Shown here: positions 34,610 through 38,878 of the stretch, piece by piece
Numbering within the stretch: position 1 is the stretch's first letter
Layout: each line of letters opens with the position of its first letter
NCBI GenBank assembly: GCA_013314855.1
Contig: JABUEW010000018.1
Span: 1-46,089 of the forward strand
DNA from: Bacillota bacterium
GTDB lineage: Bacteria; Bacillota; Clostridia; Acetivibrionales; DUMC01
DNA length: 46,089 bases
Direction of reading: 5' to 3'
Position numbers and translations under genes: made by a program
Notes under the pieces: model-generated
The model's input: the letters and a program-made list of their open reading frames with translations, nothing else
Database searches by the model: none
Told to the model about the DNA's origin: nothing

Positions 34610-34975
34610 TTACTTATTCCGCAGTTTCTCCTCCAAGTTTTCATCAACAGTAATTACAATAATTTTTTCACCAGTTTTTGTACTTACATCTGAATGTGTA
34701 CTTACAATGTTTACATCAACAACCTGTTTAATGAGGCTTTCCAGATGCTCTCGAGCGCTTTCAAACAAGGTGTTCCTTACTTTTTTCACAAGCTCTATGC
34801 CCTGACTGTTTTCAGCCAGTTTCTGTTCAGACTGACTGAGAAAGCCTTTAAGACGAATAACAATCAAATCTTGTATAATGATTGTCCTGATTTGTTTGGG
34901 TCCGCGTCCCATGTATTCAATTTCGAATTTACTCACTGCTTCGCTGATTTTTGCTTCAATCTGTCCTTTTGTCAT
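34610..34975 (-). CDS. DUF2294/MpsC-like protein, copy A
   Basis: The 121-residue protein belongs to DUF2294 (PF10057), which I recall is also called MpsC after a staphylococcal membrane-potential system; whether that function applies here is unknown. No mpsA- or mpsB-like gene is present. Typical features are GRGPKQIRTIIIQDLIVIRLKGFLS and an ISTHSDVSTKTGEKIIVIT-type ending. The ATG has AAAGGAGAG 5 nt upstream; the longer open frame is excluded. It is about 84% identical by eye to copy B (38245-38607). Confidence 0.85.
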   Translation of the reverse strand: MTKGQIEAKISEAVSKFEIEYMGRGPKQIRTIIIQDLIVIRLKGFLSQSEQKLAENSQGIELVKKVRNTLFESAREHLESLIKQVVDVNIVSTHSDVSTKTGEKIIVITVDENLEEKLRNK

Positions 34976-35100
34976 ATATACTCTCCTTTCCAAATTGAAA
35001 CCTGTATCCCTGCTTTTGATAATATACCTGGTGCCTTTATATTTGGAACTACATAGTTGCATCCTCTCATGAGGTTTTCATTTCATAAATCCTTTGCACT
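34976..35100 (-). promoter_or_regulatory. Structured leader candidate before DUF2294 copy A
   Basis: On the minus strand the gap after the purK stub holds two adjacent hairpins, CCTC-ATGA-GAGG and AACTA-TG-TAGTT, then ACC...GGT pairing before the ribosome site. It does not match any riboswitch consensus I know and does not resemble the repeats near 38 kb. Confidence 0.3.
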
Positions 35101-35163
35101 ACCTGCCTTATAAAACATATGTAGATAAAAACGTGATGACAGTAACAATTATCAGACCTACTG

Positions 35164-35490
35164 TTATATAAGGGATTTACCGGAGGGATATACACTATAT
35201 CCCTTCACCTCCAGATCAATCAACATATCAGCGTCTATATGCTCAAACTCATAAGTTATGACATCACACTCTCCAGCAAGCTTTTTAATGGCGCTCCTAT
35301 CCATAAATGAAGCTGTTATTTGCTCATCCGCTACCTGACCGGCTGGTGAGGATGGGGTCGGGTCAAGTATTGTTACATGATACCCCATCCTTTTGGCTTC
35401 AACAGTTATCATTTTGCCAAGCTGCCCACCGCCTATGATTCCAATTCTTGCTGGAGGCTGCAACACCTTGTGTTTTTTTTCCTCTGCCAT
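35164..35490 (-). pseudogene. PurK N-terminal fragment
   Basis: PurK (N5-carboxyaminoimidazole ribonucleotide synthase) is an ATP-grasp enzyme of about 380 residues. This 108-residue frame has only the N-terminal pre-ATP-grasp domain: IGIIGGGQLGKMITVEAKRMGY, LDPTPSSPAGQVADEQI, VITYEFEHID and SVYPSGKSL. It stops just where the ATP-grasp domain should begin, and no continuation is visible downstream. GGGTGAT precedes the ATG at 4 nt, so the stub may be translated. It is either a decayed gene or a small stand-alone domain. It lies 14 nt after the DUF4914-like gene. Confidence 0.8.
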
Positions 35491-35504
35491 TTCTATCACC
35501 CTGT

Positions 35505-37394
35505 TTAAAACTTCATTGGTATAAATTTTAAATATTCCTCAACCGTGCCATTGCATATACAGCATTCAATTATTTGCTTGCCCAGCGGGTCAAGCTCGGG
35601 AGTAACAAACTTTGCCAGCTGTTTTTTAAAGAAATTGGTTAGTAGTTTTGCTCCTGCATCAAACCCTTCGTTGCCAACCTCCGGCTGCTTATCAACCTCC
35701 AATAAATCCTTTGGCAGAAATGTTCCATCCACTTTTATGCTACTTAATGCATATCCTAGAAGAGAACACCTTGATTCAACCAATTGCTGCTGACTGAACT
35801 TTGCACTGCCACGGCGGGCAAGGTATTCCCTTGCAATCCACTGGGGCATGAAACCAACCTTGTAAGCTCCTATGTGTTGGTTCGGTACTAATATATACCT
35901 TGTGTTTGATGTATCTACTATCTGTTTTAGCAAGAGATTTGCCTGGTCTACCATCTTGCCTGTGGCAAAAGGCCAGTAAGAACCGACACCTTCACTGGTC
36001 ATCCCTTCGGTGTCCGTAATACTAGGATTGTCATGCCCCCGTGGTGCTACTAATCTCCACAGCCATGCAAGAGCTGGGGGAAGTATATGAAACAGCCCAA
36101 TTATGCCATAAGTGGGTTTTTCTTTAGTACAGGGAGGTGTACGTATACCAAAGCTTCTAACATCAATTTCAACAGGTTCATCAACAATGTTCGGAATAAA
36201 CCTTCTCGGCATTATTACCCTTGGATTTGGACATGGCTTTCCCGGAGCATCCATGGTATGCTCCCAGAGCAGGCATGTTGAACCCGGTACAGCATCATAA
36301 TTCAAAAAAATCAAAGGCTCCACTGGATGGATGCACATACTTTCAAGATATGGGTCTGTTCCGTATTTCTTTATATGGTCTGTTCTTAAAAACCATCCGT
36401 TTTCTGCGTCTTTTACAACCAGCTTCCTGCTACCGTTCTGCAGCTTCGGATGGCATAAAGCCATGTCATCAGTTACAGGCCTTAGTTCGCATGTTTCTTT
36501 AAGTTCAAGGTATATTTTTTCTGAAGTTACAAGGTTTTTACCGATGAGTATTCTTCCGTCAAGTTCCCTGTGGAGTTGCTCATTCATCTCGCTTTTACCA
36601 CCGCCACTTGCTCCTTCATGCATTATTGTTATAACGTTTTCATAAGGAGTAATCACCATAACGGTTGAACCGTGTGCGGTTACCCATCCTTCATCCTCGC
36701 CAATTTTCAAGAGCACCCCATATACACCCTTTTTTGCACTTGGACCAGGGTATAGGTTGTATGAAAACAGCTCATATACGTCATCAAGCCTGTTGTGTAC
36801 AACCATTTGCTTTCCTTTGAAATGAGTGTGTCTGAAAGTCGGAGCAAGGTATATGATTGCTTTTGGTTTAAAGCCTTCCTCCAGCTTGCTGCCAGGTATG
36901 AAACCCTGCAAATCGGCAAGTCCCCCTGCAAAAAAGCCTGCATTGTCCGGGGCGACAAGAAGAACGGGATAGCCAAGTTCTTCTCCTCCCGCCATAAACG
37001 GCATGAGTATAAGGTTTTGTTCAGATAGCCATTCAAAGGTCATTTTTCTGAGAGAGGCAAATTCACTGCCATACCTGTCCCTGTAGCGTTGCTTGTCAGA
37101 TTTTCCATTGTCTGCAATAACCATGCAGTCAGGGTCACGTCTTCTTATATAAGGGTCGGTGTAATTAATGACAGCACCGTTTTTGCATCTTGCAACTGTA
37201 GCTTCAACGACACGTCCTTTTCCGGGCACAGCGTAAGCAACCTCAAAAAAGTTATTGTCATTTCCGCCCAGCGCAAGGTCAAGAAGTTCACTGCGGCTTT
37301 CAGGAACCGTAATCTTCATACCCTTGGCCAATATTGTTTTCAATTCATCAGGTAAAATCATTTTATTTAAAACATTCTCCATTGCATACCACAT
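35505..37394 (-). CDS. DUF4914-type PEPCK-like protein
   Basis: The protein of about 629 residues resembles a family I recall as DUF4914, distantly related to phosphoenolpyruvate carboxykinases. A kinase-type P-loop, HEGASGGGKSEM, lies near residues 260-270. The C-terminal half contains VPNQHIGAYKVGFMPQWIAREYL. Nothing resembling an intact PEPCK substrate site can be confirmed by eye, so the reaction is unknown. The start is uncertain: ATG 37394 directly follows the upstream stop; a TTG at 37421 and an ATG at 37382 are alternatives. It appears coupled to the 160-residue gene. Base composition is a little GC-richer than its neighbours. Confidence 0.8.
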   Translation of the reverse strand: MWYAMENVLNKMILPDELKTILAKGMKITVPESRSELLDLALGGNDNNFFEVAYAVPGKGRVVEATVARCKNGAVINYTDPYIRRRDPDCMVIADNGKSDKQRYRDRYGSEFASLRKMTFEWLSEQNLILMPFMAGGEELGYPVLLVAPDNAGFFAGGLADLQGFIPGSKLEEGFKPKAIIYLAPTFRHTHFKGKQMVVHNRLDDVYELFSYNLYPGPSAKKGVYGVLLKIGEDEGWVTAHGSTVMVITPYENVITIMHEGASGGGKSEMNEQLHRELDGRILIGKNLVTSEKIYLELKETCELRPVTDDMALCHPKLQNGSRKLVVKDAENGWFLRTDHIKKYGTDPYLESMCIHPVEPLIFLNYDAVPGSTCLLWEHTMDAPGKPCPNPRVIMPRRFIPNIVDEPVEIDVRSFGIRTPPCTKEKPTYGIIGLFHILPPALAWLWRLVAPRGHDNPSITDTEGMTSEGVGSYWPFATGKMVDQANLLLKQIVDTSNTRYILVPNQHIGAYKVGFMPQWIAREYLARRGSAKFSQQQLVESRCSLLGYALSSIKVDGTFLPKDLLEVDKQPEVGNEGFDAGAKLLTNFFKKQLAKFVTPELDPLGKQIIECCICNGTVEEYLKFIPMKF

Positions 37395-37395
37395 C

Positions 37396-37878
37396 CTATT
37401 CTGCTCTTTTATACGATTCAAGATTTTCTATAATTCTGCTGTAAGTATCCATTACAATATTCATTAGGTGCTGGTTGGTTTTTATTTGCAGTACAGTCCT
37501 TTTTTCTTCATTTAGATTATGCTCATCAATAAGATACGGCTTATACTCGGATAAGCAATAGTTGTAAAAAAGTCCTAAAAACCGGGTAAAATAGCTTTTA
37601 AATTCATAACTGTCAAGGGTCTTGCTGTGAAACTTAAAGTTGCAATTATAAATATCCATCAGCAGATAAGGAATTCTCCAGACATCAACATATCCTTCAT
37701 CATTGAAATACTTGTTCAGAAATAAATCGAACTGGGCATCTTCCTTGGAAATTATGTTACAAAACCTTTCCATCAGGATATAAAAATTCTTGCTTTGAAT
37801 TAAATCCTTGCCAGTATCGCAAATTTTCTTTTCATCAGAAAGTAAACTGTTAGAAAAACAAACCTTGCTGCTTAGCAT
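37396..37878 (-). CDS. Unknown 160-residue protein
   Basis: I do not recognise this protein. It is soluble, alpha-helical in style, and rich in aromatic and charged residues (YILMERFCNIISKEDAQFDLF, FTRFLGLFYNYCLSEYK). No signal peptide, membrane segment or metal motif is evident. AAAGGAG lies 9 nt before the ATG, so it is well supported as a gene. It is the first gene after the tandem RNA-like repeats and is followed immediately by the DUF4914-type gene, so it may be its partner or regulator. Confidence 0.8.
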   Translation of the reverse strand: MLSSKVCFSNSLLSDEKKICDTGKDLIQSKNFYILMERFCNIISKEDAQFDLFLNKYFNDEGYVDVWRIPYLLMDIYNCNFKFHSKTLDSYEFKSYFTRFLGLFYNYCLSEYKPYLIDEHNLNEEKRTVLQIKTNQHLMNIVMDTYSRIIENLESYKRAE

Positions 37879-37959
37879 AATCCAAAACTCCTTTCAAATT
37901 TTAATTGATATAAAAGCTTACACTCAGCAAATCCAAACTAAACTGAAAACACCTCCCAA

Positions 37960-38009
37960 CTCTTCGTGCATAAAGGATTACGCTGCGACTGGTTTCTCTT
38001 CATCTGTAG
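37960..38009 (-). promoter_or_regulatory. Third, partial copy of the tandem RNA element
   Basis: AACCAGTCGCAGCGTAATCC (37994-37975) matches the conserved 3' half of the two complete copies, but the TTGGAAGACCAA 5' arm and terminator are missing. It is the copy nearest the 160-residue gene, about 80 nt before its ribosome site. Confidence 0.55.
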
Positions 38010-38028
38010 TACAATAATACTTCAAATT

Positions 38029-38120
38029 AAAAAATCCAATATCCATCGGCACATTAAAAGCCAACAAATATTGGATTACACTACGTCTGGTTTTTCAACC
38101 CTTCGCTTGGTCTTCCAAAT
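38029..38120 (-). promoter_or_regulatory. Tandem RNA element copy 2 with terminator
   Basis: On the minus strand TTGGAAGACC opens the element. A hairpin follows: GCG (38106-38104), internal loop AAG, GGTT, GAAA tetraloop, AACC, loop AGA, CGT. AGTGTAATCC (38082-38073) comes next. The closing strand CCAA can pair with the opening TTGG. Alternatively AATCCAATAT (38077-38068) pairs perfectly over 10 bp with ATATTGGATT (38042-38033), followed by a run of six T: an intrinsic terminator. The two pairings exclude each other, as in riboswitch expression platforms. Confidence 0.7.
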
Positions 38121-38147
38121 TTAAATTTTTACGTTTTAATATAACAA

Positions 38148-38236
38148 AAGCCAATATCTACATCCCCTACGAGAAAGTAAACATTGGCTTACGCTCCGAC
38201 TGGTTATTTATAACCTTTCGGTTGGTCTTCCAATTT
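38148..38236 (-). promoter_or_regulatory. Tandem RNA element copy 1 with terminator-like stem
   Basis: On the minus strand ATTGG (38234-38230) can pair with CCAAT (38187-38183). Between them lies CCG, internal loop AAA, GGTTA, TAAA, TAACC, loop AGT, CGG (38221-38196), then AGCGTAAGCC. The closing strand AAGCCAAT (38190-38183) is instead complementary over 8 bp to ATTGGCTT (38155-38148), followed by TTG. The first pair of the inner helix differs from copy 2 (C-G against G-U) with pairing kept. It begins 5-9 nt after the DUF2294 copy B stop. Confidence 0.7.
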
Positions 38237-38244
38237 GAACTATT

Positions 38245-38607
38245 CTATTTGTTAAATCTATCTTCAAGATTCTCACCAACAGTTATTACTATGATTTTTT
38301 CACCAGTTTTAGTACTGACATCAGAGTGAGTACTTATAATATCTACATCTACAACTTCTTTAATGAGAGCCTCTAAATAACTTCTGCCAATTTCAAAAAG
38401 TGTTACCCTGACCTTCTTTAACAATTCAACTCCTTGACTGTTCTCTGCCAATTTTTGTTCTGACTGGCTTAGAAAGCCCTTGAGTCTAATCACTATTAGG
38501 TCTTGAATAATCAATGTCCGTATTTGCTTTGGCCCTCTGCCCATAAATTCAATCTCAAACTTACTCACCGCTTCGCTTATTTTTGCCTCAGCTTGTCCCT
38601 TAGTCAT
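38245..38607 (-). CDS. DUF2294/MpsC-like protein, copy B
   Basis: The 120-residue paralogue of copy A has an almost identical N-terminal 60 residues. Differences concentrate at about 68-85 (FEIGRSYLEALIKEVVDVDII against FESAREHLESLIKQVVDVNIV). AGAAGGATGG precedes the ATG. It lies downstream of panD and directly upstream of the tandem RNA elements; no clear terminator separates it from them, so the elements may be intercistronic. Confidence 0.85.
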   Translation of the reverse strand: MTKGQAEAKISEAVSKFEIEFMGRGPKQIRTLIIQDLIVIRLKGFLSQSEQKLAENSQGVELLKKVRVTLFEIGRSYLEALIKEVVDVDIISTHSDVSTKTGEKIIVITVGENLEDRFNK

Positions 38608-38878
38608 AATACCATCCTTCTCACTTGCTCATTAAAAACTATAACATACAACAACATAAAAATCAATTGCATTTTTCAAAATCAATTAATTTAATACTGA
38701 AAAATTGCCATTATCGTTTTGTTTGTTATTAAATATTAAAAGCATCATCATTAATTATTTTTCTCAAAAATGGACAACACAAAATAGGCATACGCTTATG
38801 CACACCTTTAAAAACCATCATATTAAAACAAATTAAATATCTATTTTAGTTTTAATATTAGATAGAATCCTTCGTACC
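38608..38878. other. 271-nt gap between panD and DUF2294 copy B
   Basis: AT-rich and without open frames of note. The only structure I see is a small palindromic hairpin, GCATA-CGCT-TATGC at 38788-38801, and a weak TATCTA/TAGATA pair nearer panD. Either could end pan transcription, but neither is convincing. Confidence 0.4.

Follow-up and report, generated by a model that had tools for sequence, protein, structure and literature searches.

The expression of inorganic-carbon genes in Bacillota may be tuned by a small RNA hairpin and by the protein MpsC (DUF2294), whose gene commonly lies beside it. The window analysed here is a stretch of 46,089 nucleotides from a Bacillota bacterium of the class Clostridia (contig JABUEW010000018.1). 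On its minus strand, a leader RNA lies between an MpsC gene (MpsC_B) and the gene for a 160-residue protein (U160). The reading of this leader as a transcription-attenuation switch, in which a hairpin and a terminator would be alternative folds, is well supported by sequence and folding. The RNA recurs across Bacillota beside MpsC and before bicarbonate and CO2 genes, which suggests that MpsC is a regulator acting through the RNA. We give a probability of roughly 65% to the reading that MpsC holds the hairpin, permits read-through and thereby tunes inorganic-carbon genes; the binding by MpsC and the CO2/HCO3- signal are what we infer.

To our knowledge, the control of bicarbonate import and of carboxylase levels in heterotrophic Bacillota is poorly known. 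A search of the open-licence literature found no assigned function for MpsC, no paper on DUF4914, and only fungal secretome work for DUF2294. Among the matches listed for MpsC with bicarbonate, three concerned staphylococcal or bacterial MpsAB/MpsABC, and the titles and abstract openings of the matches listed mention no bicarbonate RNA switch with MpsC antitermination. The on/off hairpin appears to be an undescribed element. If the proposal is true, a paired RNA family and protein would give both a role that can be tested directly, a candidate class of RNA-binding regulator is added, and DUF4914 and U160 are placed in an inorganic-carbon context.

A leader RNA with two alternative folds

The leader (RNA approximately 38234 to 37975) consists of two complete hairpins and the 3' half of a third. 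The element is a hairpin of about 50 nt with three internal loops. From its base it has a basal stem, a 3x3 internal loop, two pairs, a second internal loop and a 3-bp stem, above which lie a 2x2 mostly purine loop and the terminal stem. The seed consensus is AUUGG-AAG-AC-NNNN-CGA-AR-GGUU-loop-AACC-AR-UCG-NNNN-GU-AAG-CCAAU, and the internal-loop bases are conserved in the seed alignment. Copy 1 (38183..38234, minus strand) starts 11 nt beyond the last base of MpsC_B, and the 5' arm of terminator 1 (38148..38189, minus strand; dG -20.9 kcal/mol, T-rich tail) starts within the final seven bases of this copy. The basal stem of copy 2 (38070..38119, minus strand) is overlapped by terminator 2 (38033..38076, minus strand; dG -20.9 kcal/mol). 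The copies score 69.5 and 69.4 bits with the covariance model R1, which was built from eight copies and has both in its seed.

The last bases of the basal stem double as the first arm of the intrinsic terminator, so that antiterminator and terminator are mutually exclusive. An antiterminator hairpin overlapping an intrinsic terminator is the arrangement expected of protein-dependent antitermination, and folding found it in 35 of 37 copies, the terminator (dG -6 or lower) starting within the final seven element bases. It is lacking in the second copy of genome G082 and in one copy that lies close to where a sequence ends (locus L144). With ten shuffles per copy as a control, three of the 35 copies had one or two equally stable shuffles. 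The isolated hairpins of the window have a predicted dG of -14.9 and -12.7, as opposed to -20.9 for each terminator. Because the terminators are the stronger structures, termination should be the default in the window and the hairpin would have to be held.

Across 38 aligned rows (34 distinct), 93.3% of pairing cells are paired. Changes on both sides occur in 9 of 13 pairs against 4.3 in shuffles, both-side-change cells number 37 against 9.6, and the covariation score is 0.311 against 0.184 (0/500); these figures come from an alignment fitted to the structure model, which lessens their weight. Rfam 15 reported only RNase P and two tRNAs at gathering score in the window. The leader alone (E<=10) gave three matches, all far below gathering, and none reached gathering score over an element in 26 further loci (E<=1). 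In L081, a match below threshold on the opposite strand reaches the end of the element.

The spare 3' half (AACCAGTCG..., 37975..37994, minus strand) has no 5' half of its own and differs at two positions from a 20-base pattern that was matched in 0 of 500 single-base shuffles of the window leader. A spare AACCAGTCG with at most one mismatch is present in 7 of the 27 leaders scanned, always preceding U160 or DUF4914, at 58-117 nt 5' of the start codon (392 nt in G333). The full pattern with up to five mismatches is found only in the window and G312 (2/27). The spare half is predicted to pair with the 5' half of a switch, that of copy 2 in the window. For six of the seven leaders (window with copy 2, G328, G312, G179, G110 and G333), the prediction makes this duplex stronger than the one formed with the proximal half; for G763 it makes it weaker. 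Such competition for the 5' half could possibly refold the switch after read-through.

Distribution of the RNA and of the genes behind it

R1 was seeded from copies near MpsC, and a broader model, R2, was built from 22 copies. The class-wide searches fully scored only 15 candidates per genome and may have missed copies, which makes their counts lower bounds: R1 (E<=0.001) matched 5 of 391 class genomes, and R2 (E<=0.01) matched 7/391. Within the order, R1 (E<=0.001) matched 7 of 58 genomes. In the order of G354, R1 matched one of 22 genomes, the one already known. One of the seven R2 matches, in G147 (E 0.0087), lies inside a coding frame and was taken as false. The RNA-positive genomes total 12 once G243 is added from R2, and this addition is insecure: G243 belongs to the R2 training set and R1 gives it only E ~0.1.

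MpsC occurs in 17/391 class genomes and in 113/378 phylum genomes, and 29 new phylum loci (L105-L133) are those returned for the best matches among the 113. R2, which was not trained on them, matches at E<=0.05 in 13 of the 29, all on the MpsC strand (L109, L112, L113, L117, L118, L123, L125, L126, L127, L129, L131, L132, L133). Eleven of these matches occupy the gap from MpsC to the gene that follows it (one of them runs into the mpsC end), and two (L109, L112) precede the MpsC operon. Two pairs of loci share a genus (L117 and L118; L131 and L133). Similar hairpins were seen by eye in L115 and L116 (R2 E 2.9 and 0.26). A diverged form (GGGAGAUC..GAUAAACC), also recognised by eye, precedes SbtA in L088 and L121 and a PF02552-type and a pyruvate-oxidoreductase-like gene in L134; R2 gives this form 11.9 bits (E 0.94) in L088 and nothing there in L121 or L134 among the matches listed. 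In Acetoanaerobium noterae, MpsC is followed by the RNA (R2 47.1 bits) and an MFS permease. An Anoxybacillus amylolyticus plasmid carries DUF2294, a hairpin with terminator by eye, and a bicarbonate permease.

The genes behind the RNA or beside MpsC, identified by Pfam and NCBIfam, include SbtA, PurE, PurK, phosphoenolpyruvate (PEP) carboxylase, biotin carboxylase, pyruvate oxidoreductase (POR), GTP-dependent PEP carboxykinase (GTP-PEPCK) and DUF4914. Carbon genes stand beside MpsC in 13 of the 29 phylum loci: SbtA (L113, L121), biotin carboxylase (L109, L112, and upstream in L107), PurE (L117, L118), PurK (L126), archaeal-type PEP carboxylase (L131, L132, L133) and pyruvate-oxidoreductase-type genes (L115, L116). 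DUF4914 lies downstream in L127 and L129 as well. The MpsC of L123 has an MFS permease as its neighbour, and those of L125 and L110 have DASS/citrate-type permeases. No carbon gene was recognised in the remaining loci, such as L111 (a flavin oxidoreductase by eye) and L106 (a protein without a Pfam match), the neighbours in the others not having been scanned.

The order MpsC-RNA-DUF4914 without U160 is found in L061, L081, L082, L083, L127 and L136. L080 has MpsC-RNA-purK-purE, and L079 has RNA-purK-purE-DUF3360 permease-P-type ATPase. The RNA also precedes purK in L035, GTP-PEPCK in L084 (NF003253, 1010 bits) and, as identified from translation, purE in L029 and a P-type ATPase in L033. The protein adjoining DUF4914 in L081 is barely above the carbonic anhydrase cut-off (26.6 vs 25.7 bits). 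Two narrower themes for the cluster were rejected. Oxalate metabolism leaves PurE/PurK, PEP carboxylase and SbtA unexplained, and the MFS protein of L033 best fits a lactate transporter model; purine synthesis alone leaves SbtA, PEP carboxylase and biotin carboxylase unexplained.

DUF4914 loci that lack MpsC (L031, L032, L034, L036-L038, L040, L042-L045) gave no R2 match at E<=5 under default filters. Hairpins upstream of DUF4914 in L034 and L045 are possible diverged relatives of the element.

MpsC as the likely partner of the RNA

Eleven of the 12 RNA-positive genomes have an intact MpsC, and in G243 an MpsC fragment lies beside the RNA. In that genome (L041 8288-8574), the RNA next to the fragment has lost its normal upper stem and keeps the basal part and terminator. 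The RNA subtypes mostly track the MpsC subtypes, as judged from the sequences. The form GGUUGAC..GUAGGCC (subtype 2) goes with KDIK..IDGFL MpsC in G308, G327 and G311b, and G311 has one subtype-1 and one subtype-2 pair. In G328, a subtype-2 RNA precedes PEPCK with no MpsC among the listed frames within ~5.5 kb. This RNA suggested a second, subtype-2 MpsC, which was found on another contig (KDIR..IDGFL).

Distances between MpsC proteins and between RNAs correlate over 26 pairs (Mantel r 0.70, 0/5000 permutations), a result that is confounded by common descent and linkage. The 26 pairs were chosen by us and omit L123, the by-eye forms of L088, L121 and L134, and extra copies of the same cluster. 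Within the three genomes that have two pairs, five of six checks agree.

MpsC is also the output domain of response regulators in other loci, since all six class-search matches in frames of ~260 aa are REC-MpsC proteins (L092, L095, L096, L097, L099, L104). Only Response_reg and MpsC are above cut-off in these six proteins, and they carry no ANTAR domain by this measure. In L092, L096 and L097, a terminator-like hairpin precedes a 2-hydroxycarboxylate transporter or a xanthine/uracil-type permease.

Alternative explanations

The hairpin could itself be a riboswitch that senses HCO3-, PEP, a purine intermediate or a similar ligand, with MpsC as a mere member of the regulon. Conserved internal-loop bases, the antiterminator/terminator layout and a regulon of a single theme are what such an element would have, no Rfam family reaches gathering score, and some copies precede genes without MpsC directly upstream (L079, L084, L029, L033, L035). 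We nevertheless consider a riboswitch unlikely. MpsC or its remnant is found in 12/12 RNA-positive genomes, as opposed to MpsC in 17/391 class genomes, and the subtypes of RNA and protein mostly agree, including in one unlinked pair. MpsC also serves as a response-regulator output domain, and an ON switch triggered by HCO3- would induce an HCO3- importer when HCO3- is plentiful.

A direct role of MpsC on carbon transporters and enzymes, whether as an accessory subunit or by allostery, with shared operons as its sole link to the RNA, is improbable. It would account for MpsC beside SbtA, near DabA and an NADH-dehydrogenase-5-type gene on a Staphylococcus plasmid, and near mpsAB in S. aureus (PMC6689103). 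A single accessory role is, however, hard to imagine for neighbours as unrelated as a permease, carboxylases and PEP carboxylase, and neither the REC-MpsC proteins nor the subtype matching would follow from it. That the hairpins are ordinary mpsC terminators with a conserved upstream stem and no regulatory role is very improbable indeed. Most copies do come after mpsC and terminators alone are common, but at least 10 copies are not directly after mpsC. Some precede purE, purK, PEPCK, a P-type ATPase or DUF4914 (L029, L033, L035, L079, L084), others precede mpsC (L109, L112, L143), and neither the loop bases conserved in the seed nor the covarying stems would be expected of a plain terminator.

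Several observations count against MpsC as the antiterminator. At E<=0.05, R2 finds no match in 16 of the 29 phylum MpsC loci, including both POR loci. The six REC-MpsC loci lack one too (best E 0.27), as do the records from Staphylococcus and Anoxybacillus and the surroundings of the second MpsC of G328 (L141). R2 also finds none beside the second, subtype-2-like MpsC of G110 (L103, KDIK..IDGFL), whose genome has a single RNA copy, of the other form. The within-genome check for G312b goes the opposite way, and some MpsC neighbours are not carbon genes. The MpsC proteins of the window are not basic (isoelectric points 6.6 and 7.9), and fold comparison of the MpsC model was uninformative (best E 0.027 with Foldseek, best Z 7.0 with VIA). 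A standard terminator scan shows no excess (3 vs 3.7) and misses both terminators of the window, probably because their bulge and loop exceed what it allows. In S. aureus, mpsC lies near mpsAB; its deletion caused no growth phenotype, and the study's authors did not regard it as a functional part of mpsAB (PMC6689103). This null phenotype is compatible with a regulator that acts only under some conditions, or with another role in that species.

Proposed mechanism and comparison with known systems

MpsC is the likely partner of the RNA because of its output role in REC-MpsC proteins, its presence in RNA-positive genomes and the matching of subtypes. A polymerase leaving mpsC would meet the hairpin, and without help the stronger terminator would form. 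To judge by the predicted energies, the terminator would win by default and transcription would end after mpsC. MpsC would bind and stabilise the hairpin, and the polymerase would then read into U160-DUF4914. Copies that precede mpsC (L109, L112, L143) would make the regulator autoregulatory. A role in inorganic carbon is likely, since a bicarbonate importer stands behind the element in some loci and enzymes that use up HCO3-/CO2 or convert one into the other do so in others. The switch would adjust this machinery, most simply through antitermination when CO2 or HCO3- is short. A broader proposal joins these parts. In it, MpsC would represent a new class of RNA-binding proteins for antitermination, acting by itself or as the output domain of a response regulator. 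With its cognate hairpin it would form an attenuation system, responsive to CO2/bicarbonate, that governs carboxylating enzymes and the import of HCO3- across Bacillota, with refolding by the spare half in DUF4914 operons. We hold this whole only tentatively, at a little under even odds.

The proposed switch shares features with several known systems. The BglG/LicT antiterminators recognise the ribonucleic antiterminator (RAT), a hairpin that has internal loops and shares bases with a terminator, and the regulator gene lies beside or between the leaders of its targets. Both the hairpin design and the gene placement are alike here; unlike BglG/LicT, the MpsC proteins of the window have no CAT RNA-binding or PRD domain by Pfam (E<=1), and the RNA loops and gene set are other ones. 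In EutV and NasR, REC is joined to the output domain, and the ANTAR target is a two-hairpin motif. ANTAR response regulators of this kind have RNA-binding output domains and control antitermination (EutV/NasR; PMC3369931, PMC7496416). By analogy, REC-MpsC joins REC to an output domain for which antitermination is proposed here. It differs in that the output domain is MpsC and not ANTAR, the RNA is a single hairpin with three internal loops, and stand-alone MpsC is common.

Riboswitch-type attenuators such as xanthine/NMT1 and ydaO are leader RNAs with mutually exclusive structures. The MpsC-associated RNA resembles them in this respect, but it has no Rfam match at gathering score and its protein partner co-occurs and mostly co-varies with it. 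The MpsC family and the dissolved-inorganic-carbon theme are shared with MpsABC/DAB (PMC6689103). Here, in contrast, MpsC is accompanied by an RNA switch and by genes for carboxylases or SbtA, and regulation, not transport, is proposed.

The gene group in the window

After panB-C-D, the minus strand carries MpsC_B, the leader RNA, U160, DUF4914, the N-domain of PurK and MpsC_A. The first-pass annotation of the window, made without database searches, had described this group as same-strand genes with two MpsC paralogues and RNA elements, a 160-residue unknown, a DUF4914-type protein nearly overlapping it and a PurK fragment. All of these descriptions hold. MpsC_B, the proposed antitermination regulator (38245..38607), matches PF10057 at 121.6 bits (cut-off 23), and its AlphaFold2 model has a mean confidence (pLDDT) of 96. 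The promoter-like site 5' of it (38638..38666; TTGATT, 17 nt, TATAGT, with TG preceding the second hexamer) is weak, as the stretch has 20 such sites against 18.8 expected from shuffling. U160 (37396..37878) has an all-helical model (pLDDT 78) and matches nothing in Pfam or NCBIfam at E<=1, and Foldseek found no relative in PDB (best E 3.4). The DUF4914 protein (35505..37394) matches PF16260 at 1089 bits over model positions 1-612, and its ATG, at 37394 or 37382, lies 1 or 13 nt past the U160 stop. The family is represented by a 20-sequence alignment (A5). Comparison with a GTP-PEPCK by hhalign gave E 0.01 and a probability of 4%, with the P-loop and DD motif aligned, and so did not establish the PEPCK-like character that the first-pass annotation had given this protein. 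No relative was found among PDB sequences, and a profile search gave no convincing row.

The purK piece (35164..35490) has the N-terminal pre-ATP-grasp domain alone (PF22660, 102 bits), the sole above-cut-off match covering PurK. The Pfam scan found neither the ATP-grasp nor the PurK_C domain of the three that make up PurK. Its score with NF004675 is 128 bits (cut-off 375), and there is a weak Rossmann-type match (PF02826, 25.2 vs 25.1). PurK near DUF4914 or behind the RNA in relatives has 389-405 aa (545 aa in a PurE fusion). In the assembly from which the window comes (96.6% complete), every PurK match falls short of the curated cut-off, and the highest-scoring one is the piece itself (100.3 vs 318.4 bits). 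Because PurK is full length in relatives and none is above cut-off in this genome, the piece is read as a remnant. MpsC_A (34610..34975) matches PF10057 at 131.7 bits (longer open frame scanned; cut-off 23) and has no RNA copy adjoining it, copies 1 and 2 being the only R1 matches above 16 bits in the window.

U160 is present in 3/58 order genomes, the window's own included, and in 3/7 genomes of the order of G082 by profile search. A distant homologue occurs in another class (G632; hhalign 97.8%, E 1.2e-12, 62 columns). All seven U160 genomes (window, G328, G312, G082, G179, G110, G632) have MpsC encoded upstream of U160; in G110, a DUF6671 protein sits between MpsC and the RNA/U160 (L039 6628-7476). 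DUF4914 follows U160 directly in six and lies further along in G179. The distribution of the group is patchy, as G325 of the same genus (89% complete) and G326 of the same family have no U160 or RNA match. The order MpsC-RNA-U160-DUF4914 nonetheless turns up in further families of this class and in a second class of the phylum, so that the refuting outcome named in the first-pass annotation, a lack of conservation of gene pairing or RNA, did not occur. That annotation saw one cassette with no recognised pathway. MpsC_B, the RNA, U160 and DUF4914 do form a coherent unit, while MpsC_A without a nearby RNA copy and the PurK remnant do not belong to it as clearly, and the relatives indicate that a pathway is probably not lacking, since they point to inorganic-carbon (CO2/HCO3-) metabolism.

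Other observations

A kinesin light chain was the best row of a profile search of MpsC against PDB (4e-4), with no single stretch passing, and was found unconvincing; phmmer with MpsC_B gave a single PDB row (E 0.52). The top Foldseek rows for MpsC were ribosomal-particle chains (E ~0.03, TM ~0.3), from which no conclusion was drawn. In G179, a 271-aa DUF4914 fragment (L035 5798-6613) keeps an RNA copy upstream (6784-6736), and the PPDK gene of this cluster is split across two frames. Cyclic di-AMP (c-di-AMP) riboswitches (RF00379) lie beside MpsC in L105 (1266-1397), L124 (110-258 and 1079-1217) and L130 (1097-1239). The element matches next to them in L124 and L130 (E 0.13 and 0.063) were excluded from the counts. 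The riboswitches themselves hint at a link between MpsC and K+/c-di-AMP control.

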